Part shown: positions 1-21,076 of the stretch, in pieces
How positions within the stretch are numbered: position 1 is the stretch's first letter
Layout of the letters: every line of letters starts with the position of its first letter
Origin: a virus
IMG/VR virus record: IMGVR_UViG_3300047550_000348
Location: 1-21,076 of that record
Direction: 5' to 3' (one strand)
Length of the DNA stretch: 21,076 nucleotides
Notes under the pieces: generated by a model
Database searches by the model: none
What the model saw: only the letters and a program-made list of their open reading frames with translations
Told to the model about the DNA's origin: nothing
Position numbers and translations under genes: made by a program

Positions 1-489
1 AGCCGCATTTGCGCCAACCGCACCTGCACTACCACCACCACCACCACGAGTAGCCGTGTCACTATTACCGTTACCGCCCGCGTATCCTTGATTGGCTGTG
101 CCAGCACCACCGACAAAGCCTGCATTACTGCCACCACCACCCGACCCACCTGATGACCCATCAGCAGAAGCCCCACCTTTGCCACCACCTGTTGAAGTGA
201 TTGTAGAAAAAATTGAGTCGTTACCATTTGTGCCTGACGCACCGCCAGCACCAACCGTCACCGTATAGGTAGTGCCAGCAACCAAAATTAAAGTGCTTTC
301 ACCTGTTGTCGCTGAACCACCAGTCGCACCATCAGATGTTCGATAACCGCCCGCACCGCCACCACCACCAGCACTTGACGCACCAGCACCACCGCCACCA
401 GCGACAACAAGATAGTTAGCAACAATCGGTTTATAGACGGCTTCGACTTCGTACGCCGACACATAGCCCTGCGACCTAGTGCGAGCCAC
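1..489 (-). CDS. Glycine-rich tail fibre-type protein (C-terminus cut by window edge)
   Basis: 163 codons are open from a GTG start at 489 to the window edge, so the C-terminus is missing. The N-terminus reads MARTRSQGYVSAYEVEAV, followed by NYLVVAGGGGAG and then long runs rich in Gly, Ser, Ala and Thr with short beta-type stretches (TYTVTVGAGGASG). The YLVVAGGGG motif followed by glycine-rich sequence is typical of the glycine-rich domain found in phage tail fibres and receptor-binding tips. I infer a distal fibre or adhesin protein. The GTG overlaps the TAG stop of the upstream gene by one base (TAGTG). No in-frame ATG lies near, so GTG is the best start. The N-terminal G-Y-x-S-A block resembles the start of the fibre-like protein at 708-1277, which may be a shared docking segment. 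Confidence 0.8.
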   Translation of the reverse strand, partial: MARTRSQGYVSAYEVEAVYKPIVANYLVVAGGGGAGASSAGGGGGAGGYRTSDGATGGSATTGESTLILVAGTTYTVTVGAGGASGTNGNDSIFSTITSTGGGKGGASADGSSGGSGGGGSNAGFVGGAGTANQGYAGGNGNSDTATRGGGGGSAGAVGANAA

Positions 490-2174: not shown

Positions 2175-4031
2175 TCATGCCACCGATCTCATAATAACGG
2201 TAGCGGTTCCTTCCCAATCCCAACGGCTATGAATGTTTGAGTCATCCAAAACCTCAAACTGGACATTCTCGACAATCACCGAATAAGTCTCCTGATTCTC
2301 CTGATAGGTGACAATACGGGGGGTGTCCACCAAATCCCGCAAAAACGCCATCTCGTTATCAACATCCTGAAAATACTCCCTGCCACGAATACTTAGTTTG
2401 CGGTGCATGATTAGTGGCACCGAGAAAATCTGTGAACGCAACGGGGCAGCATAAGCACGACCCATCCACCTAGTCACCTCAGGGCTGACCGTACTATCTG
2501 TAGCCGACCTACCCAAAGTCAGTTTCACTTCAGCTTCAAACACCCGATCTTCTAAACCGTTAAAAGTTTTTTCTTTACCACCAACCAAAGTAAACGCCTG
2601 AAACTCGTGGTACGAACCACCATCGGCTTTAACAGCCAAAGTTACAGACCCATTCAAAGGTCGGGAACGCAAATCCCATTTCGGTATAAACTTCGCATCA
2701 GGTACACCCCAACGATAAATACCTGACGTGAGATAACCGGTAGTTACCAGATCGGTGTGTTCCGTGTAGAACCCGAGACCAGAAACAGAAAAAACTGGTT
2801 TATCTTGGAACTCGTGAATATCTGTCACCGCACCCTGACCTGTGACCATCAGATCAGAAGCATAAGCAGGCTGGTTCGGTGATATGAACACCGACAAATC
2901 CATACGCCCCATACCCGTCGAAGTGGCATCAAAGTTTTTCCACGAAAAATAAATATATTTCCCGACACCAGCGAACGCATCAACAGAGTTACCTGTCACA
3001 ATCTTCGGGCCAATAACAAGATTGCCGTCGGTGTCCGTTGAAGCGACACGGAACCCGTCAGCTAACCCGATAGCGATATAGCCGAGATACCCTTCGATTG
3101 TTTGCACCACTTCACCCAACGGAAGTTCACCGGCAACCGTCGGAATATCTAAAGATGTGCCGTCGGCTTTGACAACAGTTTTGTAAATCAACGATTTGTT
3201 GCCCGCGAAACCGGCACAATAAATATAGTTTTGTCCTGCCGCGAAACCAACCCACGCAAAGTTTGTGTTCGGATGAGTGAACAAAGCAGAAGGATTATTT
3301 GCGCTAGACCCTGGCGTGGTAGTGATGTTCCAAATCTTGTTCTTGTCGGCACCAGCACCGGCAACCATTAAACGGCCTTTAACATAATCCATTTTGCCTG
3401 CGGTTATACCGGTAATGTAATTTGATGCCGCACCGGTAGTCGGGTCGGTTTGGTCGATGTTTCCGTCGGCGTAAGAAAAAAAGACGTTGTATCCGTCGCT
3501 AGTGATATCCACCAAATCTGAAGCGTTTGTGCCTGTCACAGTTGTGAACGAAGTCAGGTTTGTGCTGTACGCCAATGTTTGCCCATCGGTGACATAGACA
3601 CGGGTATCGGCGGTAGCCATGTGAAGGTTCGTGTTCGCAGAAACACGTTTCTGTGTCACATCATGCAGTAATGTCAACGTTCCTTTATCCCAAACGTTCA
3701 CACCTTTAGACGTGTTAAACCTGAACGCTTCAGAATCCGAAGCATCCGAATACTCTTGCCCGCCACCATAATGCCAAGATGACTGTGAACGTCGCCATAA
3801 ACCTTGCGGGTTGATCGCAGACTCACCAGGTTCAGCTGACTGGTCAACCGAATCACGGACACGCGCATCATACTGACGTTGAAACGAACCCGCTTTTGTG
3901 TCAACAAGATACGGTCTGCCGTTGATAGCAACAGGGAAAACATTAGGTACAAGAGTTGTCGCACCCGTACCCGAATAGAACGCGGGCGCAGGACTATATG
4001 CGGTAGTGAAATCTACAAGATAGGTAGCCAT
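2175..4031 (-). CDS. Large beta-rich tail protein, possible tail nozzle/hub, 618 aa
   Basis: 618 residues from ATG at 4031, three bases after the previous stop. After an N-terminal segment with GRPYLVD and QYDARVRDSVDQSAEPGE, residues about 125-420 contain repeated blade-like strands (MATADTRVYVTDGQTLAYST, DGYNVFFSYADGNI, GRLMVAGAGADKNKIW, QNYIYCAGFAGNKSLIYKT, GYLGYIAIGLADGFRVAS, GKYIYFSWKNF). This looks like a beta-propeller. The C-terminal 180 residues form another beta domain. Podovirus nozzle proteins (T7 gp12 type) carry a beta-propeller and follow the adaptor gene, as here, so a nozzle or hub role is my best inference. A minor tail or fibre-base protein is the alternative. Structural is near certain; nozzle is moderate. 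Confidence 0.7.
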   Translation of the reverse strand: MATYLVDFTTAYSPAPAFYSGTGATTLVPNVFPVAINGRPYLVDTKAGSFQRQYDARVRDSVDQSAEPGESAINPQGLWRRSQSSWHYGGGQEYSDASDSEAFRFNTSKGVNVWDKGTLTLLHDVTQKRVSANTNLHMATADTRVYVTDGQTLAYSTNLTSFTTVTGTNASDLVDITSDGYNVFFSYADGNIDQTDPTTGAASNYITGITAGKMDYVKGRLMVAGAGADKNKIWNITTTPGSSANNPSALFTHPNTNFAWVGFAAGQNYIYCAGFAGNKSLIYKTVVKADGTSLDIPTVAGELPLGEVVQTIEGYLGYIAIGLADGFRVASTDTDGNLVIGPKIVTGNSVDAFAGVGKYIYFSWKNFDATSTGMGRMDLSVFISPNQPAYASDLMVTGQGAVTDIHEFQDKPVFSVSGLGFYTEHTDLVTTGYLTSGIYRWGVPDAKFIPKWDLRSRPLNGSVTLAVKADGGSYHEFQAFTLVGGKEKTFNGLEDRVFEAEVKLTLGRSATDSTVSPEVTRWMGRAYAAPLRSQIFSVPLIMHRKLSIRGREYFQDVDNEMAFLRDLVDTPRIVTYQENQETYSVIVENVQFEVLDDSNIHSRWDWEGTATVIMRSVA

Positions 4032-4034
4032 CGG

Positions 4035-4919
4035 CTACTTCCTGAAAACTAGTGGATACTGCTGTTTAAGTCGTGCTGCTTCCGCAACGATACGTTCACG
4101 ACGCAACCTTTGAATGTTCGTCAACGAATCCCGTGTAGCACCAGCAGGCACCTCATCCGATCTGCGAGTGTCACCTTGCGATTCGATAAAGTTCCGTTTA
4201 ATTTCACGCCCGTTCATCATCCGCAACAAAACACCCATCTCCAAAATGTCTTCACAGGATTGCGGTACGAAACACGCTGTCTGCAAATCTGATGACTCGC
4301 TACTGGCACGAGTGAACTCACGTTTCGTGACAACCCGCAAAGTACCAGCCATAACAGGTTCATCGAAAACGATAGCGAAACCTGACGCAAAATCTGATGT
4401 CGGCAAATTGCGTTGCAACCTGACCTTACGGATCACCGGATAGTCGTCAGCCAAATAACGCAACCTGACATCAATCAAATCAATGATGCCTGTACCTGAA
4501 GTCAAATTGATTTGGCGATCAGACCCGTTGTAGCTGATGTCTTGGGCGACAACCCTGAACAGGCCGTTCACCGTGGAACTCAGATCGTCAATGTCGGAGT
4601 TCAAAGCATCCAACATTTGTTGGCGTGGGAACCTCGGGTTTACTGTGGCGAGAACACCAGCGGTGTGTGCTACTGCGGTAGTACCGTCGTAGCCTCGTTG
4701 AACAGTCAAAGTTTTTGTTGCTGTTGCGGATTCCCACACATACATCAACTCTGACTCAATCTCGATAACGGAACCTTCACGGAACCCGCCAAGATCGTAG
4801 GACAGCACAATAGAAGTGTCTGCCGAAGTAACCGTTGTCGCTAACTTGTTTCGTTCCTCAACGGTTCCCGATAAAAGTTGGCGACTGGCTCTAGTGAGTA
4901 CCGCACCAGCAGTTGACAT
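4035..4919 (-). CDS. Probable head-tail adaptor / neck protein, 294 aa
   Basis: 294 residues with ATG at 4919, three bases after the miniprotein stop. Residues about 25-90 form a beta domain (LSYDLGGFREGSVIEIESE, TLTVQRGYDGTTAVAHTAG) ending in ATVNPRFPRQQMLDALNSDIDDL, a helix typical of phage adaptors ('...R...I..ALN.....I'). A mixed middle region follows (FRVVAQDISYNGS ... IDVRLRYL ... VRLQRNL) and then a helical, charged C-terminus (LRRERIVAEAARLKQQYP). It directly precedes the beta-rich 618-residue tail protein, matching the adaptor-then-nozzle order of short-tailed phages. No family can be assigned with certainty. The adaptor call rests on the helix motif, size and position. Confidence 0.6.
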   Translation of the reverse strand: MSTAGAVLTRASRQLLSGTVEERNKLATTVTSADTSIVLSYDLGGFREGSVIEIESELMYVWESATATKTLTVQRGYDGTTAVAHTAGVLATVNPRFPRQQMLDALNSDIDDLSSTVNGLFRVVAQDISYNGSDRQINLTSGTGIIDLIDVRLRYLADDYPVIRKVRLQRNLPTSDFASGFAIVFDEPVMAGTLRVVTKREFTRASSESSDLQTACFVPQSCEDILEMGVLLRMMNGREIKRNFIESQGDTRRSDEVPAGATRDSLTNIQRLRRERIVAEAARLKQQYPLVFRK

Positions 4920-4922
4920 CTG

Positions 4923-5033
4923 TTAGTAGTTTTTGGCTTTCTTCATCGGCATACCAGTTTTCTTGGCCGCCTTCTTAGCGTCGGCTTTACCCTTCTTCGT
5001 GTATGGAAACTTCTTTTTTCCTACCATCGGCAT
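4923..5033 (-). CDS. Lysine-rich miniprotein, 36 aa
   Basis: A 36-residue ORF beginning MPMVGKKKFPYTKKGKAD and ending MPMKKAKNY. Thirteen of 36 residues are lysine and there is one Asp and no Glu, so the net charge is about +12. It has a good ribosome site (GGAG, eight bases before the ATG at 5033). Its first 47 bp overlap the 3' end of the GT-B gene in another frame, and its stop lies 3 bp before the adaptor gene. Small basic proteins starting M-P-x-V-G-x-K-x-F-P-Y are, to my memory, common hypothetical proteins of tailed phages. The role is unknown; nucleic acid or virion binding is a guess from charge. The ribosome site and tight packing support a real gene. Confidence 0.75.
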   Translation of the reverse strand: MPMVGKKKFPYTKKGKADAKKAAKKTGMPMKKAKNY

Positions 5034-6159
5034 AATTGTCGCTCCGTTTCAAAATCTCGAAAGACTTTATATAGTTTGCCTTAGCCAATATATCATAGAC
5101 ACCGTTGTTCACTATATAGTCCACTTCTGGCACGAAATCCCAATGATTGTCGTTTATGCCAGCCTCGCATTTGCGGTTCACCTGAATTTTCAGATAACAA
5201 ATAAACGGCTCATAAACAGGGTTCTCAATAATGTGGCCTACCGGTAAAACATCTATCAGTTTCCGGCATGACTCAACCCAACTGTATTTAGCGACCTCAC
5301 CAACCCGCCCCAACGCTTCAGCTTTATACCTGTCAGAATCCCCGCAGACACGCCTCAGAGCCTCTACAAGCGCGTCAACGTCAGGTTCATCCCAACAACC
5401 CTCAAAGTTGATTATCTCGTAAGCATGACATTCCTGTGACGTTACAGGGATAACCACCGACGCAAGATCAGCGTACTGTGCCTGCCCAGAAGTCGGCGTA
5501 ATAATCGTAGGGATACCCATAGCCATAGCCTGCAAAGGCATCAACCCGAACCCTTCGCCACGGCTTGCCCCAATGAAACAGTCAGCCTGATTAAACCAAT
5601 CAAACTGTTCCTGTTTAGTCATCCACCCCGTATGAATAATAATGTTTGAAGGCCAGGTGCGTTGAGGTACGAACCGTTCCAACGGCACCTTGATATGCAA
5701 CTCTGCGTCAACACCAGCCTTCTCGAAGGCTTCCACCACGACATCCAAACCTTTACGCAACCACATCGAACCACCAGCATGAAACCTGAACCTACTGTTC
5801 GCAGGTCTAGGTGTCGGCTTCCAATAACCGATATTCACCCCTAACGGCACGACAGAAACATTGTCGGAATACTGTGCAAAAAGTTCACGGTTATGTTCAC
5901 ACGGAACAATGATCTGATCGTAACTACCCAAAAACCTGTAATACTTCTCAGGCAATTTCGTTGTTTCCCACATCGTATAAAGCGCACGATGCTGCCCACG
6001 CAAAAACCCATGCGACCTAGACGGGTCATACATCAACACCGCAACAGAAGCCTGATCGTGTAACTGCACACCGGCAGGCAACCCTGACCTGAACCCTTCC
6101 AACATGGCACCATACCCGTACTTGGATGCTTCGGTACCGAACCAATACTGGTAGTTCAT
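4987..6159 (-). CDS. GT-B glycosyltransferase (GT4-like), 390 aa
   Basis: Transfers a sugar from a nucleotide-sugar donor; acceptor unknown. The start is placed at ATG 6159 (MNYQYWFGTE), which forms an ATGA overlap with the stop of the preceding GT2 gene. An in-frame ATG 75 bp upstream would give an implausible Cys-rich N-terminus. The acceptor half has GTEASKYGYGAMLEGF (8-23). The donor half starts near VPLGVN (104-109), then FHAGGSMWLRKGLDVV and GASRGEGFGLMPLQAMAMGIP (198-217). This last is the GT4 E-x7-E region, but the second Glu is Gln here (E202, Q210). About 80 C-terminal residues follow the GT-B core. No membrane segment is seen. The fold is confident; a role in glycosylating tail or capsid proteins is inferred from its place in the structural operon. 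Confidence 0.85.
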   Translation of the reverse strand: MNYQYWFGTEASKYGYGAMLEGFRSGLPAGVQLHDQASVAVLMYDPSRSHGFLRGQHRALYTMWETTKLPEKYYRFLGSYDQIIVPCEHNRELFAQYSDNVSVVPLGVNIGYWKPTPRPANSRFRFHAGGSMWLRKGLDVVVEAFEKAGVDAELHIKVPLERFVPQRTWPSNIIIHTGWMTKQEQFDWFNQADCFIGASRGEGFGLMPLQAMAMGIPTIITPTSGQAQYADLASVVIPVTSQECHAYEIINFEGCWDEPDVDALVEALRRVCGDSDRYKAEALGRVGEVAKYSWVESCRKLIDVLPVGHIIENPVYEPFICYLKIQVNRKCEAGINDNHWDFVPEVDYIVNNGVYDILAKANYIKSFEILKRSDNYADGRKKEVSIHEEG

Positions 6160-6866
6160 GATTCGACGCTCACAAAATTCCATTTGTTCGCCTGCCCAAA
6201 ACCTATTCGGTTCGCACCGACAGCCGTACTCCAAGCCTGCAAATACTCATTTATTGAAGTTACAAAATATGAGAACACGTTGTCACGATAAATAGCACCA
6301 ACAGTTATCGTCGGTTTTGACATAACTCTGATTGTTTTCATGTGCAAACTAGCCCAAGCCAAAGGATACCTAGTATCAAGTTTTGCTAATCCTAAACCAA
6401 TATCCATCGCATCCCTGCGCCACACCGTAGAAGTAATCAATGTTGACGCAGTAAGCGCAGACTTGTCGTGCAAACTATTCATATAATCTTTAATCAACCC
6501 ACAAAACCCTGGCATCACTTCACCGCTTTTAACCGTATAATGCAACACCCGATCAACACCATCCAACATCGGCAACAACATCTCAACAGTTCCAGGCAGC
6601 ATCGTGTCATCGTCACCGAACACCCAAACATATTTACCGGAACCTTGCGTAACACCACGAAACACGTTCGGGTCGCCATCAATGTTTTTCAACCGTTTAC
6701 TGTAATGAACCTGCGAATACTGTTTAACGAACTGTTCAGCGTAACCATCAGGGTCATTGTCGCTAACAATAAGTTCAACACCGTCAACAAGTTGCGGAAC
6801 AATAGAAGCCAAACACGGCCCGATATCAGGCCGATTAAACGTCGGCACATAGATAGTTAAAAGCAT
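6156..6866 (-). CDS. GT-A glycosyltransferase, family 2, 236 aa
   Basis: The start of the protein is a textbook GT2 fold: LTIYVPTFNRPDIGPCLASI (3-22), VELIVSDNDPDG (30-41) with the nucleotide-binding Asp, and YVWVFGDDDTMLPG (79-92), whose GDDD supplies the DxD metal and donor site (D85-D87). At 236 residues it is a compact soluble enzyme with no C-terminal membrane helices, unlike cell-wall polymer synthases. It starts at ATG 6866 directly after the upstream stop (TAAATG) and overlaps the GT-B gene by four bases (ATGA), so the two are very likely co-translated and may act in sequence on one glycan. Substrate unknown. Phage-encoded transferases of this kind modify virion proteins or host surface glycans; which applies here is not shown. 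Confidence 0.87.
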   Translation of the reverse strand: MLLTIYVPTFNRPDIGPCLASIVPQLVDGVELIVSDNDPDGYAEQFVKQYSQVHYSKRLKNIDGDPNVFRGVTQGSGKYVWVFGDDDTMLPGTVEMLLPMLDGVDRVLHYTVKSGEVMPGFCGLIKDYMNSLHDKSALTASTLITSTVWRRDAMDIGLGLAKLDTRYPLAWASLHMKTIRVMSKPTITVGAIYRDNVFSYFVTSINEYLQAWSTAVGANRIGFGQANKWNFVSVES

Positions 6867-7157
6867 TTAGCCAATGATATTGGTTTTGTCAGGCAAAATA
6901 CCTGTCGCCACCTGCCAGTTCTCCTCGGCACGTTTCTCAACAATCGCGGCACCATCAATGTTTTTAGGTTGCTGACCGTTCTGACGCAAACGACGATAAG
7001 CGTCAAGGTCTTTATCCAACACCCGTTCCTTCTCGATGATCCGTTTCGATTCAGGTTTACGGGTAGGCATCGCTTCAGCCGAAACATTAAAGTGTGCGAT
7101 CCTGCAACCGAAACAACCCTCAACATCTAACCCTGGATGAGTTTCCCTATGCTTCAC
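6867..7157 (-). CDS. Actinobacteriophage-type hypothetical protein with GCFGC motif, 96 aa
   Basis: 96 residues from a GTG start at 7157, overlapping the previous stop by four bases (GTGA). The N-terminus reads HPGLDVEGCFGCRIAHFNVSA, with a C-F-G-C pair that could bind a metal or form a disulphide. It is followed by AMPTRKPESKRIIEKERVLDKDLDAYRRLRQNGQQPKNIDGAA and a charged C-terminus. From memory, small proteins with this GCFGC ... AMPTR ... DLDAY ... NG.QPKN.DG pattern recur in actinobacteriophage structural regions with no assigned function. This is one of the better host hints in the window. With only two cysteines, a zinc site would need dimerisation. Confidence 0.75.
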   Translation of the reverse strand: MKHRETHPGLDVEGCFGCRIAHFNVSAEAMPTRKPESKRIIEKERVLDKDLDAYRRLRQNGQQPKNIDGAAIVEKRAEENWQVATGILPDKTNIIG

Positions 7158-7438
7158 GTTATATACGCCCCATATCCCGCCGCGGTTAGCGAAGCAACCT
7201 CAGCAGCCGTAACCTCAATGTCGTGACCACCGTAATATGTTTTAGCGACAGTAGCCATATCGCCAGGCTGCTTCTGAACATAGCTTCCATCAGTCAACAA
7301 AAACACGTTCACACCACGCGCCCTCGGCGCATAATGGCGAGCTAACCGTTGCGCCAACCTTTCATCGGAAGACAACTCGTTTTCGTCAACAGGTAATACC
7401 GCGACCACGTTCTCTGTAGGTGTCCTAAAAATAGCCAT
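7154..7438 (-). CDS. Small tail protein, paralogue of the neighbouring C-terminal domain, 94 aa
   Basis: 94 residues, ATG at 7438 overlapping the upstream TGA (TGATG). Residues about 40-94 (RGVNVFLLTDGSY ... VAKTYYGGHDIEV ... LTAAGYGAYIT) align with the C-terminus of the preceding 321-residue protein (RGLNLYKLTNGEY ... VAKLWHGGRDHFL ... LVADGFGANIT) without gaps over about 54 residues. Both proteins end in the same G-x-x-IT. Domains of this type occur at the ends of actinobacteriophage tail and virion proteins. The first 40 residues are unrelated and partly acidic. I infer a tandem duplication in which this copy lost, or never had, the repeat shaft. The role is unknown; structural is likely. 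Confidence 0.75.
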   Translation of the reverse strand: MAIFRTPTENVVAVLPVDENELSSDERLAQRLARHYAPRARGVNVFLLTDGSYVQKQPGDMATVAKTYYGGHDIEVTAAEVASLTAAGYGAYIT

Positions 7439-8403
7439 CAGGTTATGTTCGCTCCAAATCCGTCTGCAACAAGTTCAGCGTATTCCACGTCAGTCAAAAA
7501 ATGATCCCTGCCACCATGCCACAATTTTGCAACCTGCCCTTGATCTCGTTGTTCCACAGTAGTGTACTCGCCGTTAGTCAACTTGTAAAGGTTTAGACCA
7601 CGAGTATAAGTTTTGTAATAGGAACCTAAACGGTTCTCAACATCGAACTCACCGAACGCACCACCACCGTAAGTGTCTGTGTACGGTACACGGAAAATAT
7701 GTGACTTATCCCAATCAGCGGTACCGGTACCTGCACCTGATCCTGTCGCGGCACGACGCTCAATACGTGCGCCAACACCAGTCTGCGTACCCGAACCCGA
7801 CCCTGTAGCTGTACGCAAAGACACCAACAACCAAACACCCGAACCAGAACCCGCACCCGACCCTGTAGCAGAACGGATGTTGATAACCAAATCGGTTGCA
7901 GTACTTGAACCGACACCTGAACCTGTCGCTGTGCGTGACGGGATTTGCCCAAAGAAAGCACTACCTGAACCTGTGCCTGAGCCTGTGGCGGTTCGTGGAG
8001 CGATATGTAAACCTGTCGAATCAAACGTGCCGACACCTGAACCTGTCGCAGAACGAACAGCAACAACAACTCTTACCGCAGTACCACTACCAACACCATC
8101 GCCTGTCGCTGTTCGTAACCTAACAATGTTCGCCGAAGAAGAAGCAGTACCCGACCCTGACGCTGTAGCGGTAACAGTAAGAACCGCTCGAACACCAAGA
8201 TAGAAACGGCCACCGTTCCTAAACGGAAAACTGAAATCGGTTAACTGACCCAACCGTATCTGAGCAGAACCAGAAGCAACCCCAGAAGTACCACCACCAG
8301 AACCCGTAGCAGTACGACCAACAACACGAAAATAGGTGCCACGATAAAACGGGCGTGTATCAACAAACGGTTCCGCAAAACCCGTAACTGCTGCCTGCGC
8401 CAT
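7438..8403 (-). CDS. Repeat-containing minor tail / fibre protein, 321 aa
   Basis: Starts at ATG 8403 with AGGGGG nine bases upstream. Residues 1-29 are a leader. R30 begins a first repeat-like copy (RTATGSGGG), and after a 27-residue insert there are eight consecutive units of exactly 20 residues (77-236). Each has the core R-[TSA]-A-T-G-[SD]-G-x-G followed by a variable, hydrophobic second half; the first unit is degenerate (VTATASGSG). This suggests a beta-solenoid or fibrous shaft with turns at the glycines. Residues about 265-321 form a C-terminal domain shared with the next gene. The highly regular repeats and the position after the capsid genes favour a fibre or minor tail protein. No enzymatic motif is visible. 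Confidence 0.75.
   Translation of the reverse strand: MAQAAVTGFAEPFVDTRPFYRGTYFRVVGRTATGSGGGTSGVASGSAQIRLGQLTDFSFPFRNGGRFYLGVRAVLTVTATASGSGTASSSANIVRLRTATGDGVGSGTAVRVVVAVRSATGSGVGTFDSTGLHIAPRTATGSGTGSGSAFFGQIPSRTATGSGVGSSTATDLVINIRSATGSGAGSGSGVWLLVSLRTATGSGSGTQTGVGARIERRAATGSGAGTGTADWDKSHIFRVPYTDTYGGGAFGEFDVENRLGSYYKTYTRGLNLYKLTNGEYTTVEQRDQGQVAKLWHGGRDHFLTDVEYAELVADGFGANIT
7696..8175 (-). repeat. Eight tandem 60-bp coding repeats
   Basis: A recurring block on the plus strand, of the form (c)ctgt(c/a/g)gc(g/t/a), falls at 60-bp intervals near 7742, 7802, 7862, 7922, 7982, 8042, 8102 and 8162. Each block encodes A-T-G or A-T-A. The unit is 20 codons with no indels in the eight copies. The conserved half of each unit encodes R-x-A-T-G-S-G-x-G and the other half is diverged. 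The copies are too diverged for recent slippage but retain exact length, which suggests structural selection on period. Confidence 0.9.
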
Positions 8404-8421: not shown

Positions 8422-8790
8422 CTAATCGAGAGACAGCGTAAGCGAAGTGATCTGAAAAGTATCCCCAGCAGTAACAGCCGCAGACGACGACAAAGCACCA
8501 GTCCACAAAGCATTACCCGCAGTCGAAGCATCCCACAAAGACCAATGCGTAATCGTTTCAGTCGCCGCAACATTAGTCCACTCAAGAGTTGCGTTAGTTG
8601 CGATAGAACCCGACGAAGCCGCAGCCCAAGAAGCAGCCTTACGAGTAGTTTCAGTAGCCGCATTAGATGTCGCAGCCTCACCAGGATCACCGGTATGCAA
8701 CTTCACATACACCGTAGTAGGCATAGTCCAAGAAGCCTCACCTGTTACGTGGTCAAGAATTTTGTTTTCAGCATAATTAGAAATCGACAT
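8422..8790 (-). CDS. Gp80-like actinobacteriophage virion protein, 122 aa
   Basis: The N-terminus SNYAENKILDHVTGEASWTMPTTVYVKLHTGDPGEAA (from residue 4) and the C-terminus THWSLWDASTAGNALWTGALSSSAAVTAGDTFQI match the pattern of a widespread phage family that I recognise as mycobacteriophage Gp80-like. Its hallmarks are S-N-Y-x-E-N-x-[IL]-L-[DN]-H, V-Y-[VL]-x-L-[HF]-T-x-D-P-[GT] and W-D-A-x-x-x-G-N-x-L-W-x-G. The family is all-beta and found near capsid or tail genes; its exact role is unsettled. The ribosome site (GAGAGG, five bases before ATG 8790) is good. It is the first gene after the terminator, so it depends on read-through or a promoter in 8791-8823. Confidence 0.85.
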   Translation of the reverse strand: MSISNYAENKILDHVTGEASWTMPTTVYVKLHTGDPGEAATSNAATETTRKAASWAAASSGSIATNATLEWTNVAATETITHWSLWDASTAGNALWTGALSSSAAVTAGDTFQITSLTLSLD

Positions 8791-8893: not shown

Positions 8894-9844
8894 TTATGCG
8901 CCACCAAGTGAAGACGACGAGTTGAGAACACGGATAGCTGCCTGACGGAAAATTCCGTAGCCACCCAACCAGTACCAACCAATCGGATTGAAACGCATCA
9001 ACGAATCCACTACTGGACCACGGACAACCTTCGGATATGCTCCGTTGCCATCTGTGATGCTGTGTGCCTTCGCCAACGATTGACGACCCATGATAAGAGT
9101 TGAATAGAGGTCAACTGTTGAAGCTGAACCACCAGTCAAATCGAGTGGGGCGCGAGGAGTCTCAATGAAACGAACGGCCTCAAACGCACCAATTTCGCCA
9201 TTGTAGATGTTCGCTGTGTCCACATAGTTATGTGGGTCACGCCACGAAGCTGCACCGGTTTCACGGCGAAGATCGTACGAAACGTCTGGGTGAATGAAAC
9301 CCATGTACATTCCGTTGAACGTCTGAGCCTTCGAACCACGCAACTGTGCTGTTGCCTTACGAACGTCATTGGCTTCAATGATGTCCTCTGATTGAACTTC
9401 AGCGTTCGCTGTTGGAGTTGACGAACCGCCACCACCGTAAATCACGTTCGTTGCAGCCTTCAAAACGTTGGCGACAACAGTATCGATTGACGATCCTGCG
9501 TTGTAACCAATGAGGTTTGCTGCAACAGCATCAACGTCAAGGAACGAAGTTCCACGAAGTTTCGCTGTGGTGTTTACTGTGTTGCCATATTCGGCAAGAG
9601 TGACAGTTACTTGGCTGTCTGCCATCGCTACTGCGGTGACATCAACTGTTTCGCTGAGTGTTGCTGTCGCATCTGAGAGTTCCGAGAAAATCGTGAACGC
9701 AACCGATGTTCCAGGCATTGACTGAGCGACAGGCTGTACGTCTGCTGCTGCGTCAAAAAGCATTTCTGAACGGAGCGCGAAATACGCGATCTGATCAAAT
9801 GCCGCCTGATCGACTGATAATGAACTTTGTTGTGTATATGCCAT
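8894..9844 (-). CDS. Major capsid protein, N4-gp56 family (HK97 fold), 316 aa
   Basis: Forms the icosahedral shell. The strongest stretch is MGFIHPDVSYDLRRETGAAS, then W-R-D-P-H-N-Y and NIYNGEIGAFEAVRFIETP (residues about 180-225), followed by DLYSTLIMGRQSLAKA; this matches the N4-gp56-type major capsid family. Earlier landmarks are SVAFTIFSEL and TVTLAEYGNTVNTTAKLRGTSF. Its length is slightly below the usual 330-400. I start it at ATG 9844 (MAYTQQSS) rather than TTG 9868, which would add eight residues with no ribosome site. GGGGAG lies about 16 bases before the ATG; a small hairpin (GACC/GGTC) between them could shorten the gap. It follows the scaffold by 39 bp and is closed by the terminator. 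Confidence 0.9.
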   Translation of the reverse strand: MAYTQQSSLSVDQAAFDQIAYFALRSEMLFDAAADVQPVAQSMPGTSVAFTIFSELSDATATLSETVDVTAVAMADSQVTVTLAEYGNTVNTTAKLRGTSFLDVDAVAANLIGYNAGSSIDTVVANVLKAATNVIYGGGGSSTPTANAEVQSEDIIEANDVRKATAQLRGSKAQTFNGMYMGFIHPDVSYDLRRETGAASWRDPHNYVDTANIYNGEIGAFEAVRFIETPRAPLDLTGGSASTVDLYSTLIMGRQSLAKAHSITDGNGAYPKVVRGPVVDSLMRFNPIGWYWLGGYGIFRQAAIRVLNSSSSLGGA

Positions 9845-9883
9845 GACCTTTAGGGTCTTTCTCCCCAAAGACTTGCTTTGAGG

Positions 9884-13339: not shown

Positions 13340-14190
13340 TACGCCCCCAATTCTTTGATGCGGGCATCCATGATTTGCGCATAATTAGCGGCAGCAAAAC
13401 TCTGTGCCTCAGGTTTGAACTGTCGAAGAATCTGTTTCTCTGCAACAGTCGAAGGTTTAGCCGCCGAAGTAAACACCCCACCAGCAGCCTGCTTTTGTGC
13501 CTCAGCAATTTCCATTTGCTGATAAGTTTTAGCAAACTTTTGTGCCATCGCATCATCAATTTCGTAACCCAACAAATCTGTTGACGCTTTACGGAACACA
13601 ACTTTCAAATCATCCGGTGAAGTAACACGAACCGACGGGGCTTTGCCACCCGCACCTTTTACTTGCGGTGTGCCTTCAAGAATTTGGAAAGCAGTCTTAT
13701 AGGTGACACCGTTAGCGTTTGCAACATTGTTTAAGAACTCTGCCATCGCGCTACGATCAACCGAATCAACCCTGTTCGTACTCGGTTTCGAGTTACCGTA
13801 GTAGCCGCGTGTTTGTAGCAGGTTTGTGTAATACTTGTATTGGGTTGGGTTTTTGATGAGTTCCAACAAAATTGTGTTCGCATCAGTTAGCGGGCTAAGG
13901 TCGTACTGTGGGCGGGTAACGATACCGTTTTCATCAACCAACAACGGGCCTCGATAAACAGTTCTACGACCAGCACCACCACCGCCACCGGTTTCAAAAT
14001 CTTTCGGATCAACAGCAATACCTTGCGCCGAGCCTTTGACTATGCGCGACGGGAAACCGTAACCAGCCAAATAGTTAGCACCACTCTGCTGACCGGCAGA
14101 ACCAAAAAAAGCCAACAATTCTTCTTGGGTCATTTCCGAGATTTTTTTGTCGCTAGTAGCGGTCTGTGTATCTTTAGGGTCTCCAGCCAT
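13339..14190 (-). CDS. Unknown internal-cassette protein, 283 aa
   Basis: 283 residues, ATG 14190 in a TAATG overlap with the giant gene's stop. It has a polar, disordered N-terminus (MAGDPKDTQTATSDKKISEMTQEELLAFFG), a glycine run (FETGGGGGAGRR, near 66-76), then a mixed domain with YDLSPLTDANTILLELIKNPTQYKYYTNLLQTRGYYG and a helical C-terminal half (DDLKVVFRKASTDLLGYEIDD, AKTYQQMEIAEAQKQAAGG). The family is not recognised. Conserved context between the giant protein and the coiled-coil protein suggests a partner in the same virion sub-assembly. No catalytic residues stand out. Confidence 0.6.
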   Translation of the reverse strand: MAGDPKDTQTATSDKKISEMTQEELLAFFGSAGQQSGANYLAGYGFPSRIVKGSAQGIAVDPKDFETGGGGGAGRRTVYRGPLLVDENGIVTRPQYDLSPLTDANTILLELIKNPTQYKYYTNLLQTRGYYGNSKPSTNRVDSVDRSAMAEFLNNVANANGVTYKTAFQILEGTPQVKGAGGKAPSVRVTSPDDLKVVFRKASTDLLGYEIDDAMAQKFAKTYQQMEIAEAQKQAAGGVFTSAAKPSTVAEKQILRQFKPEAQSFAAANYAQIMDARIKELGA

Positions 14191-17100
14191 TAGTCCTCAA
14201 CCTCATACGAAAAGAAACGTTGCCACACACGGCCAAACTCAGGGTTTTCTAAAATAAGCATCTCGCCCATACTAGCCAACTTGTCTCGAAGGTATTGAGT
14301 TTGCTTTGATTGTTTAATGTTGTTTGATCCGAACTGTTGCAAAGCGATGTTTTGTGCCGCAGTTCGGAACGTCAAATAGGTGTTAATTGTTTGAGCTATC
14401 GGACTGTTAGCCACACGAGGATCAGCAACCAAACGGGCCATGTCTTCAACCTGGTTGTCGTATTCGCCCACCTTGAACTCTGCTACCAATGGGAAACCTG
14501 GCAGTTCGGCGTGTAACGCTGCACGATACTGCTTCAAAAGATTACGGTTATCCTCTGAAGGGAACTGGCCAATCTGTTTTCTAGCCCAACGATACTTTGC
14601 TGAACCGATACGTTCCTGAGCCAAATCAATGATTTCTTTGTCAGTTAACCGTTCACGTTTACCGCTACGGATTTGGCGATCCCATACAGCGAACGAGAAA
14701 TCGTCGCCACCTGGCGCAAGATATGAAGCGATGTCTGGGAACTCTTTTAATAAATCGCCGTTGGATCGTTCCCAATCACCGAACTGTTCCGTGGCTTCCA
14801 AACCTTGAACCGTTGACTTAGATTTTGATGAAATGTAGAGACCGGCATCGTCACCGAACTGATCCAAAAAGGTTTGGACAGCCGAATCGTAATCTTTTGT
14901 CTGCAAAGCATAGAACTGTTTGATTAGTTCGCTAACAAAAATGTCGCCGTCTTTAGTGGTGATTTTGAACTCTGTCGCACCGGCTGTCGGTCCGATGAAC
15001 TGTGATAACGCTCGGAACGCTGTCAACCATTGTGCTTTGCCTTTAGCGTCTGATTGCAGTTTTTTGATTTCTTCAGGGTTGCCTAAATCATATTTGCCGG
15101 TGGCTGACAACGCACGTAAAGTTTCGACATAGGTGTTGGCGTAAACGGTGTCCATTTTGCCTTCGTTACGGGTTAATGCCTGCAAAAGTTTTTGTGCGTA
15201 ACCTGGCACGATTGCCCCACCAGTCGCCCGAATATCTTTGCGACCATACGGCAAAAGCACTTCAACAATCTTGTCCGTCTTCGGAGTATCAGGAATCAGT
15301 TTTGATGCCGCCAACTGTGCGAACGGGCCAAGCGCAGGGAACACCTGTAAACCTTGCGACAATCTTTGCAACGGTGCTTTCAACGGTGCATCCAAACCTG
15401 TGATCGCTTTCGCTAAAGCACCCGAAGCAGGGAACATAAAAGTCATAGCGTTAGTCACAGGATCGTTGTAGAAGAACCCTCGACCATCGTTATCAGGGTC
15501 AGCGTTCGCTGCGGCGTTATATACGCGGGTTGTGTTGCGATACAAAGAAACAGGGTCTTCTCGGAAGATATGGCTGTATGTGCCGATGATTTCTTTCCAC
15601 GCTGGGGCGAACGGGGCGATGATACGCAAGATGTCTTCAAGGTTTGTTTTGTTGCTTGCGTCGTACAGCAAGCCTTTAGTTTTTTCTAGTCCGACGTGTT
15701 TCGCGTAGTCGTCTAGTTCTTGCAAACTTGCTGTACCTTTGCCTGTTACTGCTCGATTCAAATCTTTTAACAGTTTCGGACTGCCAACATATTCTTCAAT
15801 GTTTTGACCGGCTTCTTCTGCTGCTTCTTTAATAGCGTTCAAAGCGTCTTGTGCGCCAGCTGGTGAAAGCTCGTCAACATATTTGCCGACTTCTTCGTAA
15901 TAGTATTTTCTGAATACCGGCGAACGTTCAAGTTTGCGAGTGATTGAACCGTACAGTTGACCGAAGAACCAGTTAGTCGGGCGATCCAAAGATTTACGCC
16001 AAGTGCTTGTGTTGCGTTCCGTCGCCAAAATTTCCCGTTTAAGCACTTCTGGTAAACCTTTTTGCCCATCCCAAAGCTGTGTTTTCTGTACAATTTCACG
16101 GAACTGTGGTGTACCCACACCATTATCACCGAAAGCAGTAACAAAATTTGTTCCTTCTTTTGCAACTTTTTGCGAAACAATCGGTTGCACTTCTACCTGC
16201 AAACCTTCTGGTGCCTTAGTCAAATTTTTAGCAAAACGTTCACCAGTATCGGGATCAATGCCTTTAACAATTACGCCAAAAGTAGGGTTGTTCGGGTCTG
16301 TGCTTGTCCGGACCGTTGAACCAACACGCAAAGGGCCATCTTCAACATTTTCTAAATCGCTTAAAAGTCTTCGAAGGGGCGCAACTGTATTGCCGTCTGC
16401 GTCACGCAAAGGGATGCGGTTGAAAGCGTAAGCAAACTCAATGTCGGGTATGTTGCCAGTCAACTCTTGGACATTGTTTACAACTATTCGTTCGGCGTGT
16501 TGGAACAACAGTTGATCTACTTCTTCTGCTGAAATTCGGTCAAAAAATATAGGGTCTAAACGGCCTTTTGCGCCGGTATTATCCCCAATTTCCAACCCTG
16601 AAGCATAAGCATTTTTGATTGTGTCATAAGTTTTTTTGTCTTGTTTTATTGCGGCGACTACACGTTCTTTAGCAACCAATCTAGATTCGCTTGTAACCCC
16701 ACCAAACTCAACAAATGTTTGAGCCGCTATTCTTCTCAATGCCGGCGAATTTTCTCCAACAGAATCAGCAAAAACAAGATAGCCGTTTTGCGCCACGGCA
16801 TCCGTGTGCAATTTCATTCCGTTCACATCCGAACGTGTAGCCCTAGACCATGCACCAGTTTTAACCATGTGGTCAAAAATTTCTTCAGACCCCATACCTT
16901 GTTGACGTAAACCAAAAGTCATCGCTTCTCGAACATCGTCAACATATTCTTCAAGTTTCAAACCAGTCAACAATTCGCCTTTCAAAGACGTGCGCTTAGA
17001 TTGGCCCAACACAAGCGAAATGTATTCAAACGGATGAGTGAACACCGACGGTAAACCTGAGAACGCCATACGAACCTGAGCATCAAGCGAGTTGCGGACA

Positions 17101-19106
17101 ACATAACCGCCAGTCATCAAAGTCAACGGTTTCCAAATTTGGTTCTGCAAAACGTCAATGGCTTTGAAAGCCGCACGTTCTTCTCCGGTGCGCACACGCA
17201 TTGACACGTTTTGTTTCAATGCTTCTCGTTCTGCCTGTAAAGTCCTGATTGCTTCGGCTACATCATCTGGGTCGCCAAGCCCTGTTGAGGCCATTTGTTG
17301 ATAGTAGGCAATATCTTTACCAAGTTTGTCATATAGTTCTTCATCAGTAATTTTTGCTATTTGACGAACAACACTTTTGCCACCAATGGTGCCGGCTTTT
17401 TCGCTAAAGCCGAAAAATCGGTTGGATGTCAACCTGCGCAACTGTCGAACATCAGGCAACACCTGTACTCGTTGCAACATTTCGGATATCTGCAAAGGCG
17501 AAATGATACGGAAATCTCCGCCTTCGCCAAAAGTTTTGATTAAGGTTTCTATTTCCTCTAAAGGCAAAAAGTCTCGGTTGCTGTTAGCCAACCATTGAGC
17601 CATGCCGTTGTCGGTTGTTACGCCAGCACGATTCAACATATATAGCCTGACTTGATCCAAGCCTTCACGGACTTGACGAAAAACATCATCGCGGACTTCT
17701 TGCGCAACGCCGTTAAGTTTCAATACTTCATCAATGGCTGTGTTAAAAGATTCTAAAACCGCATTTTGTTGAGGCCGTGTGCCTGTTTCAGAGAAACTTT
17801 CTATTGCTTCCGCGCCAATACGAGAAACGGTGTCCTCATCCGCGCCGACGGTACGTAAATAATTGATGATATTTTTTGCGGCTTTAGAGTTCTGGAACCT
17901 GTCACCGCCAACGATCAAGCCTTCTTCGGGTTTTTCGGTTAGATATTTTGTTACGACACGACTAGTGTTTTTAACAAATTTGCTGTTCGCCAAAGGCGTA
18001 CGTTCAACAAGGTTCCCACCAAAATTTTTAAGTCTTGTGCCAAGATACCCAGATTTTTGTAGCAATCGAACCTGATCGGTTAACGCACCTTTTTCTAACT
18101 GGAAACCTAAAGCAAGAACGGCTTTAACCTGATCGTCGGTTTCCGCTTTTGCCAACAACGAAACCATTTCATTTGACACGTTCGCGCTTTGGTCAAACAT
18201 ATCCATGATTTTGACCGCATTTTTTTCGTTACGTATCCGAGCAACGAGAGTTCTTGCCCTAAAGTTCGTGTCCATAAAATGCGCATACTTTGTTTCATTC
18301 AAACCAACATCAGACAAACCTGGGATAAATCCTGCGTCGGCTTCAAGAGCTTTACGCAACTCGTCTGTTTGTACCCTGGTGAGCCGTGGGATGAGTGTCG
18401 TAACATCTTTGAACTCTTTGATTGCTTTCGTTACCGGACCTGTCGGATCGGTTTTAACCAAAACCAAAGCATCAACCAACCCTGAAAAAAAGTTGTAAGG
18501 CAAAGTTTTAGGTTTGAAAACCGTGTTCGCAGCAGCTCGCCCGATAGTGAACGCCGACCCGTTGATCGTGCCACGGTATCGTCGAGCGCGTTCACCTTGC
18601 CGTTCCAACAGTTCGTCGCTAACAAAAAACCCTGAACCTGCCGTAATCTTCTCACCGGTCTTGGGGTCATAGTCGCCCTGTGTTGCTTTGATTAACGAAC
18701 CTAACTTTGTTGAAATGAACCAGCCGTCAATGTCCGTGTTCTTGTCAAAGATTTGTGCTACCGCACCCTGAGTGGTTTCAGGAATGAAATCAAGTCCTGC
18801 TGTCAACCAACGTGAAACCGTTTTAAGGTTCCTATACAAAAAACTTGATTGGTCCGGTTTCTCTGGTTCGGCTTGTGTGTCAATAGTTTTTTGTGCCGCC
18901 ATTTTGCCGACAGCATCAATCGCTTCGTTGGATGCGTTCGCTTTCGCTAAAGCCAACTGTGTTTCAATAGGCACCCATGCGGCGCGTTGTTTAACATTAG
19001 AAAGGTTTATTGAAACGTTCGGGTCAAGAACTGGTTGTGGGGTGGCGACTTTTTTTTCTAAAACAGCTTTCTTAGTAGTCGGATCAAGATTGGATTCCCA
19101 TGCCAT
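14190..19106 (-). CDS. Giant putative internal virion / DNA-ejection protein, 1638 aa
   Basis: 1638 residues, by far the largest gene here, ATG 19106 in a TAATG overlap. It is mostly helical and soluble, with no signal peptide and no clear membrane helix. Landmarks are a helical region with GLDFIPETTQGAVAQIFDKN (near 95), KPLTLMTGGYVVRNSLDAQ (about 660), PFAPAWKEIIGTYSHIFRED (about 1165), an amphipathic, small-residue block with FMFPASGALAKAITGLDAPL (about 1220), and a charged helical C-terminus. I found no convincing polymerase, protease, lysozyme or kinase motif by eye. Position after the portal and size suggest an ejection protein like T7 gp16 or a P22-type injection protein, but this is inference. 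A tape measure is less likely because it is not a long heptad-rich coiled coil and no tube genes are present. Confidence 0.6.
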   Translation of the reverse strand: MAWESNLDPTTKKAVLEKKVATPQPVLDPNVSINLSNVKQRAAWVPIETQLALAKANASNEAIDAVGKMAAQKTIDTQAEPEKPDQSSFLYRNLKTVSRWLTAGLDFIPETTQGAVAQIFDKNTDIDGWFISTKLGSLIKATQGDYDPKTGEKITAGSGFFVSDELLERQGERARRYRGTINGSAFTIGRAAANTVFKPKTLPYNFFSGLVDALVLVKTDPTGPVTKAIKEFKDVTTLIPRLTRVQTDELRKALEADAGFIPGLSDVGLNETKYAHFMDTNFRARTLVARIRNEKNAVKIMDMFDQSANVSNEMVSLLAKAETDDQVKAVLALGFQLEKGALTDQVRLLQKSGYLGTRLKNFGGNLVERTPLANSKFVKNTSRVVTKYLTEKPEEGLIVGGDRFQNSKAAKNIINYLRTVGADEDTVSRIGAEAIESFSETGTRPQQNAVLESFNTAIDEVLKLNGVAQEVRDDVFRQVREGLDQVRLYMLNRAGVTTDNGMAQWLANSNRDFLPLEEIETLIKTFGEGGDFRIISPLQISEMLQRVQVLPDVRQLRRLTSNRFFGFSEKAGTIGGKSVVRQIAKITDEELYDKLGKDIAYYQQMASTGLGDPDDVAEAIRTLQAEREALKQNVSMRVRTGEERAAFKAIDVLQNQIWKPLTLMTGGYVVRNSLDAQVRMAFSGLPSVFTHPFEYISLVLGQSKRTSLKGELLTGLKLEEYVDDVREAMTFGLRQQGMGSEEIFDHMVKTGAWSRATRSDVNGMKLHTDAVAQNGYLVFADSVGENSPALRRIAAQTFVEFGGVTSESRLVAKERVVAAIKQDKKTYDTIKNAYASGLEIGDNTGAKGRLDPIFFDRISAEEVDQLLFQHAERIVVNNVQELTGNIPDIEFAYAFNRIPLRDADGNTVAPLRRLLSDLENVEDGPLRVGSTVRTSTDPNNPTFGVIVKGIDPDTGERFAKNLTKAPEGLQVEVQPIVSQKVAKEGTNFVTAFGDNGVGTPQFREIVQKTQLWDGQKGLPEVLKREILATERNTSTWRKSLDRPTNWFFGQLYGSITRKLERSPVFRKYYYEEVGKYVDELSPAGAQDALNAIKEAAEEAGQNIEEYVGSPKLLKDLNRAVTGKGTASLQELDDYAKHVGLEKTKGLLYDASNKTNLEDILRIIAPFAPAWKEIIGTYSHIFREDPVSLYRNTTRVYNAAANADPDNDGRGFFYNDPVTNAMTFMFPASGALAKAITGLDAPLKAPLQRLSQGLQVFPALGPFAQLAASKLIPDTPKTDKIVEVLLPYGRKDIRATGGAIVPGYAQKLLQALTRNEGKMDTVYANTYVETLRALSATGKYDLGNPEEIKKLQSDAKGKAQWLTAFRALSQFIGPTAGATEFKITTKDGDIFVSELIKQFYALQTKDYDSAVQTFLDQFGDDAGLYISSKSKSTVQGLEATEQFGDWERSNGDLLKEFPDIASYLAPGGDDFSFAVWDRQIRSGKRERLTDKEIIDLAQERIGSAKYRWARKQIGQFPSEDNRNLLKQYRAALHAELPGFPLVAEFKVGEYDNQVEDMARLVADPRVANSPIAQTINTYLTFRTAAQNIALQQFGSNNIKQSKQTQYLRDKLASMGEMLILENPEFGRVWQRFFSYEVED

Positions 19107-19468: not shown

Positions 19469-21076
19469 TTATGCCCCTAGTTGTGCTAATAGTGCTTCCA
19501 ATGGTGGTGCGCCCGCTGGTCCTTGTACTGGTGCTTCTGCACCCATGCCTGGTGTTGCCAACCCTGGCATTGTTTCTGGTGCGCCTTGTGGCATCGCTGC
19601 GGCTTGTCTGTCTCGTGCGCGTTGATCTGTTCGTTTAACCGCATCGTACAACGTTACATCTTTTTCTAGGACTAGCGATGTGAGATAGGCAAGGTCTTCC
19701 GGCTGGTATGGGCCTTGCGGGTTCACAGCCTGCTGCTGGATAGATGACAGTAACGCTGATTCGACTCCTTCGGCGATGATGCGATCATGTTCTAGTTCTG
19801 GGTCGGTGATTAGCGGGTCTGCTTCTCGTGCCGATTCTTTCGACATTAAACCTGTGCCGAGTCGTTGTCCGAGTCCGATGATAAGACTGTTCACGTCTGA
19901 ACCTGCCGCCGAGTATGCGACATAGTGGAAGTCGGTTTGCCAAATTTTGTTCGGTGTGTAGGTTTCTTGTCCGACTGATGATCGTGACGGGATGAAGAAC
20001 GTTTTGGTTACGTCACCCCAATAGGCTTTTTCGATTGCGATAGCAATTTTGTCTTCCTCAAATAGTGAGGCTTCGAAAGTTGATTGTGCTTCTTGTACAC
20101 GGTAGTCAACGGTTGCTGATAGTACGGAGTCTCCGCGTCGGCCTGTGCGAATGTTTGTGCCTGATTCGCCACCGAACTCTGCTGGGATAGCACCCTCAAG
20201 TCGTTCCTGTCGTTCCAAACGGTCTAACGCTGTATCGGTTTTGTAGCCTGGGTTTAGTTGCAACTGTTGAATGTCGCCACCTTTAACGACACCTAGTTGT
20301 CCTGCTTTGCCGTCAGCTAACTGCAATATCTCAGGGTTCTCACCTGGTCGTGCAACAAGATATTCTTCAGGGAAAATACCGCGCTCGATAGCGATCTCTG
20401 TTAACGCCTGTAGGCGAGCGCGAGTGTAATACATCCCCATAACGCCATCGAACTGTCCACGAGGTTTATCGAGCGTGATCCTGTTCGCTACTACTGCTAG
20501 TGGCATACCTGTGCGGTTTGGTACGAACTCTAAACCGAGGGCATCCATGCCTGCTCGTTCAGCGATATTCAAACCTGGGTTGTCTTCTGCACCTAGCACG
20601 ATGAGTTGTAGTGATTCTGCGTCAACGTATTCGAGCATTGTGTATCGGCTGTCCGAGTTCACTACACCCATGCGTAGTTTTTCGGTGATTTCGTTGCCGT
20701 ACATTTTGATTAGATATGATGCTGATGCTCTGAAAGTAAAGATGCAGTCGTCTGGCAGCATATTGTCTGGGTCATCTACTGGTGCCGCGAATGTGTCTAA
20801 CGGGTTGCGTACAGTCCATGTTGGTGTCAAAGTACGGAAGTTTGGTTTGAGAACTACAGCGGATTGTGAGTAGCCGAGTAGGTGTCGTGCGCGGCGACGC
20901 ATTTTCATTTGCATTTTGTTCTCATCCCAAATGGAGAGCATTGCTTTGCGTCGTTGACGTGCCGAAGATTTTGCCCGTTCGGAGCCTTCTTTGATTGGCG
21001 GGAAGTATGGGGTTGGCATCGTTGAAGATACACGCATAGACATCTGATCCAAACCCTGTACAAGCAGGTTCGCTAC
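19469..21076 (-). CDS. Portal protein (N-terminus beyond window)
   Basis: Forms the dodecameric ring at the capsid vertex through which DNA passes. 535 codons lie in the window and the frame is open to its end (VANLLVQGLDQMSMRVSS), so the true start is upstream; the TTG at 21052 is probably internal. Portal-like features are PYFPP near the visible start, FHAPVDDPDN-type loops (AAPVDDPDNMLPDD), LDRLERQERLEGAIPAEFGGES, a long helical stem region (DYRVQEAQSTFEASLFEEDKIAIAIEKAYW), and the C-terminal LGTGLMSKESAREADPLI-x-DPELEHDRI, common in portals. The last 50 residues are Pro/Gly/Ala-rich. Its place before the scaffold and capsid genes supports the call. Confidence 0.82.
   Translation of the reverse strand, partial: VANLLVQGLDQMSMRVSSTMPTPYFPPIKEGSERAKSSARQRRKAMLSIWDENKMQMKMRRRARHLLGYSQSAVVLKPNFRTLTPTWTVRNPLDTFAAPVDDPDNMLPDDCIFTFRASASYLIKMYGNEITEKLRMGVVNSDSRYTMLEYVDAESLQLIVLGAEDNPGLNIAERAGMDALGLEFVPNRTGMPLAVVANRITLDKPRGQFDGVMGMYYTRARLQALTEIAIERGIFPEEYLVARPGENPEILQLADGKAGQLGVVKGGDIQQLQLNPGYKTDTALDRLERQERLEGAIPAEFGGESGTNIRTGRRGDSVLSATVDYRVQEAQSTFEASLFEEDKIAIAIEKAYWGDVTKTFFIPSRSSVGQETYTPNKIWQTDFHYVAYSAAGSDVNSLIIGLGQRLGTGLMSKESAREADPLITDPELEHDRIIAEGVESALLSSIQQQAVNPQGPYQPEDLAYLTSLVLEKDVTLYDAVKRTDQRARDRQAAAMPQGAPETMPGLATPGMGAEAPVQGPAGAPPLEALLAQLGA

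Follow-up and report, generated by a model that had tools for sequence, protein, structure and literature searches.

A 20-residue repeat array in a widespread phage protein family and its apparent exchange between near-identical phages

The phage DNA examined here encodes a 321-residue protein that carries an array of eight units of exactly 20 residues, and the reading that best explains it, which we hold with moderate confidence, is that of a fibre-type protein, a structural appendage on a short-tailed phage, with an exchangeable array. Judging from profile matches, the repeat belongs to a widespread family of phage proteins without a functional label. The family itself was already catalogued as PHROG 23524; its repeat unit, an insert module of 27 residues and the apparent exchange of arrays are described here, so that an unlabelled family now has an anatomy of unit, spacer module and end domain. 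Phages of freshwater actinobacteria are widespread and few have been isolated, hence their host-recognition proteins are mostly unnamed. An array that can be exchanged between otherwise near-identical phages would be a concrete candidate for a determinant of host range.

Source DNA, gene order and probable host

The DNA comprises positions 1 to 21,076 of IMG/VR record IMGVR_UViG_3300047550_000348, read on one strand; this whole stretch of 21,076 nucleotides is referred to as the window. It is probably a fragment of a podophage genome, with the following genes:

19469-21052: portal
14190-19106 (-): 1638-aa protein between the portal and capsid genes
8894-9868 (-): major capsid protein (PF13252)
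8422-8790 (-): neighbour related to the podophage GP4 fibre I protein gp80 (PF23140)
7438-8403 (-): repeat protein, 321 aa (PHROG 23524)
7154-7438 (-): 94-aa stand-alone paralogue of the repeat protein's C-terminal domain
4987-6866 (-): two glycosyltransferase genes (PF00535; GT group 1)
4035-4919: adaptor-position protein, label inferred from gene order
2175-4031: nozzle-position protein, label inferred from gene order
1-489 (-): Gly-rich domain protein, running off the window edge (PF21722)

The repeat gene lies within the virion structural cassette, and most relatives whose locus reaches that far keep the order scaffold, major capsid protein, gp80-like fibre I, repeat protein, 94-aa protein, adaptor, nozzle; in L035 and L040 other proteins intervene between the gp80-like gene and the repeat gene. 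The glycosyltransferase pair sits inside this cassette, shortly after the repeat gene. Two relatives, L030 and L036, have no recognised glycosyltransferase homologue between the repeat gene and the adaptor, and L016 is without the first of the pair. Streptomyces phage homologues of the nozzle candidate are annotated as hypothetical. The 1638-aa protein has no Pfam match and, by its size and position, is possibly an internal or ejection protein.

The best matches of the capsid protein are to OX376640 (LanE43-AprE7), at 45% identity, and to Streptomyces phages, at about 43%. Together with phages E7 and F5, which were isolated on a 'Ca.' host (PMC10202952), these matches make a freshwater actinobacterial (Actinomycetota) host likely. 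Another protein of the LanE43-AprE7 phage record (L051:7704-9296 (+)), whose gene lies upstream of those for the capsid, contains a long and perfect run of Gly-Thr dipeptides.

The repeat array

The repeat gene can be divided as follows:

8317-8403 (-): N-terminal segment (AVTGFAEPFVDTRPFYRGTYF), residues 1-29, conserved among close relatives
8257-8316 (-): separate first repeat unit, residues 30-49
8176-8256 (-): 27-residue insert (RLGQLTDFSFPFRNGGRFYLGVRAVLT), residues 50-76
7696-8175 (-): array of eight 20-residue units, residues 77-236
7441-7695 (-): C-terminal domain, residues 237-321

Residues 77-236 split without gaps into units 1-8, each of 20 residues: VTATASGSGTASSSANIVRL, RTATGDGVGSGTAVRVVVAV, RSATGSGVGTFDSTGLHIAP, RTATGSGTGSGSAFFGQIPS, RTATGSGVGSSTATDLVINI, RSATGSGAGSGSGVWLLVSL, RTATGSGSGTQTGVGARIER and RAATGSGAGTGTADWDKSHI. 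The first-pass annotation had described eight consecutive units of exactly 20 codons without indels at 7696-8175, and both the description and the coordinates hold exactly. Of the eight, unit 1 is degenerate (VTATA), and unit 8 merges at its end into the C-terminal domain. When the 160-residue array is compared with itself at an offset of 20, 60 residues match, the maximum at any offset in 2000 shuffles being 32.

The repeat is old and selected and not the product of a recent DNA duplication, since synonymous codons differ between its units: 57-64% of synonymous sites differ between units of the window array, and the codons for Gly-5 include GGC, GGT, GGG and GGA. Tandem Repeats Finder reported no 60-base array. 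Pooled dN/dS is about 0.17 for positions 1-10 and about 0.45 for positions 11-20, from pairs that are not independent; this supports a stronger constraint on the conserved half, and agrees with the earlier remark that half of each unit is more diverged. A long antisense frame at 7673-8203(+) was rejected as a gene and is read as arising from the codons of the repeat themselves (PxPDPVAVR).

Family and distribution

Residues 3-321 of ORF 7438-8403(-) match positions 2-342 of the 342 in PHROG 23524 (E 1.4e-97). The profile is matched too by seven of eight further proteins scanned, these seven being all those that have the repeat. At first pass the repeat was not recognised as a named family; it does match PHROG 23524, whose function label is 'unknown'. 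The repeat protein has no Pfam or NCBIfam match at E up to 1 and no significant sequence match in the PDB.

In IMG/VR, 47 relatives came from a protein-guided scan and at least 119 stretches from a scan with a DNA pattern; the two together, all from uncultured phages, yielded at least 133 distinct repeat proteins, which were split into at least 941 distinct units. Among the matches listed (133 proteins), a spacing of exactly 20 accounts for 942 of the 1119 between units, one of 22 for 79 and one of 47 for 53. Both the pattern scan, which requires one or more 20-codon spacings, and the splitting into units of 20 residues favour this period; the 47 loci of the protein-guided scan were chosen without a 20-codon criterion and have the same period. 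Selection on the 20-residue period, as first proposed, is supported by its retention across a large phage family, at 942 of 1119 spacings among the matches listed. The units follow the consensus R-T-A-T-G-S-G-x-G-(T/S)-x-(T/S)-A-x-x-h-x-h-x-h, with G7 conserved in 98% of units, G9 in 91%, G5 in 90% and R1 in 85% (among the matches listed), and hydrophobic residues at positions 16, 18 and 20. The 47 protein-guided relatives range from 254 to 425 aa, and their unit number varies but does not change between close relatives. Some long relatives have extra domains: in L134 an additional stretch lies inside the array, and in L066, L093 and L150 the array is preceded by about 150-240 further residues. 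L134, L066 and L150 have no Pfam match.

A tblastn search for the repeat gave no match in 50,697 phage records, where low-complexity masking may hide some, and a full-text literature search for its letters found no paper. A bacterial or prophage origin was rejected: a DNA pattern of RTATG twice at 60 nt, which can miss divergent copies, occurred in one contig only among 84,980 species genomes. That contig is from Chloroflexus islandicus, where a GSRTATGHGG repeat, unrelated to the present one, precedes a ParA-like protein.

Modules outside the array

The ~27-residue module LTDFSFPFRNGGRFYLG recurs at N-termini and within other arrays. It is N-terminal, ahead of the first unit, in L086, L052, L056 and L042, and internal in other members, with up to three copies (L059). 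A further repeat copy at residue 30 and a 27-residue insert (50-76) had been noted at first pass and both are real. The accompanying idea that one unit had been displaced was rejected, because the intervening 27 residues are an independent recurrent module, which stands alone at some N-termini and recurs inside other members. A weak similarity between the insert and the window's own N-terminal segment (P about 0.01) is only a suggestion that the two may share descent.

The C-terminal ~85 residues are paralogous to the product of the next gene, 7154-7438 (41%, E 4e-11), which itself matches the PHROG 23524 profile (E 1e-20). Among the matches listed, 120 of 133 repeat proteins have the C-terminal domain, and several of the others end at contig ends. 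No sequence relative of the domain was found in the PDB.

Probable exchange of the array between near-identical phages

Where the window and L016 share the other genes from scaffold to nozzle, these are 93-99% identical. Within the repeat gene, residues 1-76 are 99% identical, and unit 8 with the C-terminal domain 97%, yet units 1-7 are only 72% identical, with no indel, so that the array is mosaic. The array differs at 35 of its 101 4-fold degenerate sites and the remainder of the gene at 4 of 92 (Fisher P 6e-8), and relaxed protein constraint therefore cannot explain the difference. The nearest array to that of L016 belongs to L148 (83%), a phage with flanks only 67-81% identical to those of L016; the immediate donor was not found. 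Replacement of a fixed-length cassette by recombination explains the pair best.

Across eight orthologues, near-identical pairs aside, 4-fold divergence is higher in the array than in the flanks in nearly every pair. A second pair, L105 and L145, is milder, with flanks at 98-99% and the array at 88%, and the clear array swap is that of one phage pair, the window and L016. In the comparison that gave this second pair, very low array identities (0.22-0.30) probably come from aligning without gaps across small indels and were left out. A more specific model, in which a fixed-length cassette is swapped by recombination with the end domains as arms, the unit count fixing rod length and the units setting the host surface, is at this stage tentative. 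If true, cassette exchange would be a modular diversity system in freshwater actinobacterial phages that works without a dedicated enzyme.

It is unlikely that the array is a plain shaft or spacer whose sequence drifts, with only the Gly/Thr half of importance, and that the L016 differences reflect incidental recombination with no role in recognition. Neither half of the unit has a dN/dS above 1 and close relatives have a fixed number of units, as such a shaft would have, but weak-constraint drift alone is insufficient to produce so large an excess of 4-fold differences in the array over the flanks between the window and L016.

Evidence for a fibre or appendage role

In L140, a siphophage tail protein, the repeat is flanked by a tail-protein domain (phrog_1887) on one side and by PF21722, a C-terminal Gly-rich domain, on the other; the product of window gene 1-489 has PF21722 as well. 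The arrangement supports the view that the repeat serves as a module of fibres or as a spacer. The repeat protein is a putative tail protein, and the fibre role suggested at first pass fits the gene order and the domain fusions. A place in the head, as a decoration or head fibre protein, seems improbable: the repeat gene is two genes after the major capsid protein and the gp80-like family upstream is labelled 'head protein' in PHROG, but gp80 is fibre I in Pfam and in the GP4 structure, and L140 fuses the repeat to a tail-protein domain.

Predicted structure

The full-length AlphaFold monomer has a mean pLDDT of 39, with about 30 in the array and values >70 only in residues of the C-terminal domain. 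The array alone, modelled with 46 in-register sequences, reaches a mean of 42 and shows two regularly spaced strands in most units, at low confidence. Searches of PDB folds with the models gave no significant structural relative, the match to FapC (E 1.1) not being significant. In view of the low array pLDDT and these fold searches, a confident monomeric solenoid is not supported by the models, under which a trimeric shaft and disorder are both possible. Profile matches of the array in the PDB (a designed filament, fibronectin and a designed helical repeat; E 0.02-0.08) were put down to composition. The best Foldseek hit among viral models, A0A1B0XU09 (400 aa, 34% identity, E 1e-15, unnamed), was set aside as a relative and not a functional clue.

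Also improbable is a flexible or disordered Ser/Thr-rich linker decorated with sugars by the two neighbouring glycosyltransferases, which would suit the low AlphaFold confidence, the Ser/Thr/Gly-rich units and the closeness of those genes, but for which the exact-20 period and the alternating hydrophobics at 16, 18 and 20 would be unusual. The lack of a recognised glycosyltransferase homologue in L030 and L036 also counts against it.

Proposed mechanism

On the reading as a fibre-type appendage, the conserved parts for attachment or capping would be the N-terminal segment, the 27-residue module and the C-terminal domain, with each 20-residue unit forming one structural repeat between them. One short beta strand would run from the hydrophobic second half into RTAT, a turn would be formed by GSG and another strand by xGTxTA, and the units would stack into a rod whose length is set by their number. 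In close relatives the number of units is constant while the unit sequences could be replaced by recombination with related phages, hence the rod probably displays a variable surface, most likely toward the host cell. In well-studied fibres the variable part is usually the tip and not the middle, which counts against this reading.

Comparison with known systems

The closest known entity is PHROG 23524, which matches the repeat protein over the full length of its profile and carries no functional label. The small phrog_8987 proteins of Streptomyces Beephvirinae phages and OX376640 share homology with the next gene and, weakly, with the C-terminal domain, but they stand alone, without the repeat array. 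A relative of the GP4-type podophage tail fibres (gp80, PF23140) is encoded immediately upstream, although the repeat protein itself matches neither PF23140 nor any PDB chain. Curlin and Fap amyloid repeats have about 20 residues, two short strands and Gly turns; the repeat protein is alike in unit size, in Gly turns and in its two (here predicted) short strands, and it matches no Pfam curlin profile, nor any Pfam family at E up to 1. The triple beta-spirals of the adenovirus fibre and reovirus sigma1 are trimeric shafts built from short, regular repeats in which Gly makes turns and hydrophobic residues alternate. The repeat protein resembles them in all three features of the unit, and differs in having no sequence match to them, in its 20-residue period and in its Gly-x-Gly-x-Gly half. 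If the fold is that of a fibre, the 20-residue, silk-like Gly-x-Gly repeat would seem not to have been described before and would give a simple code for rod length.
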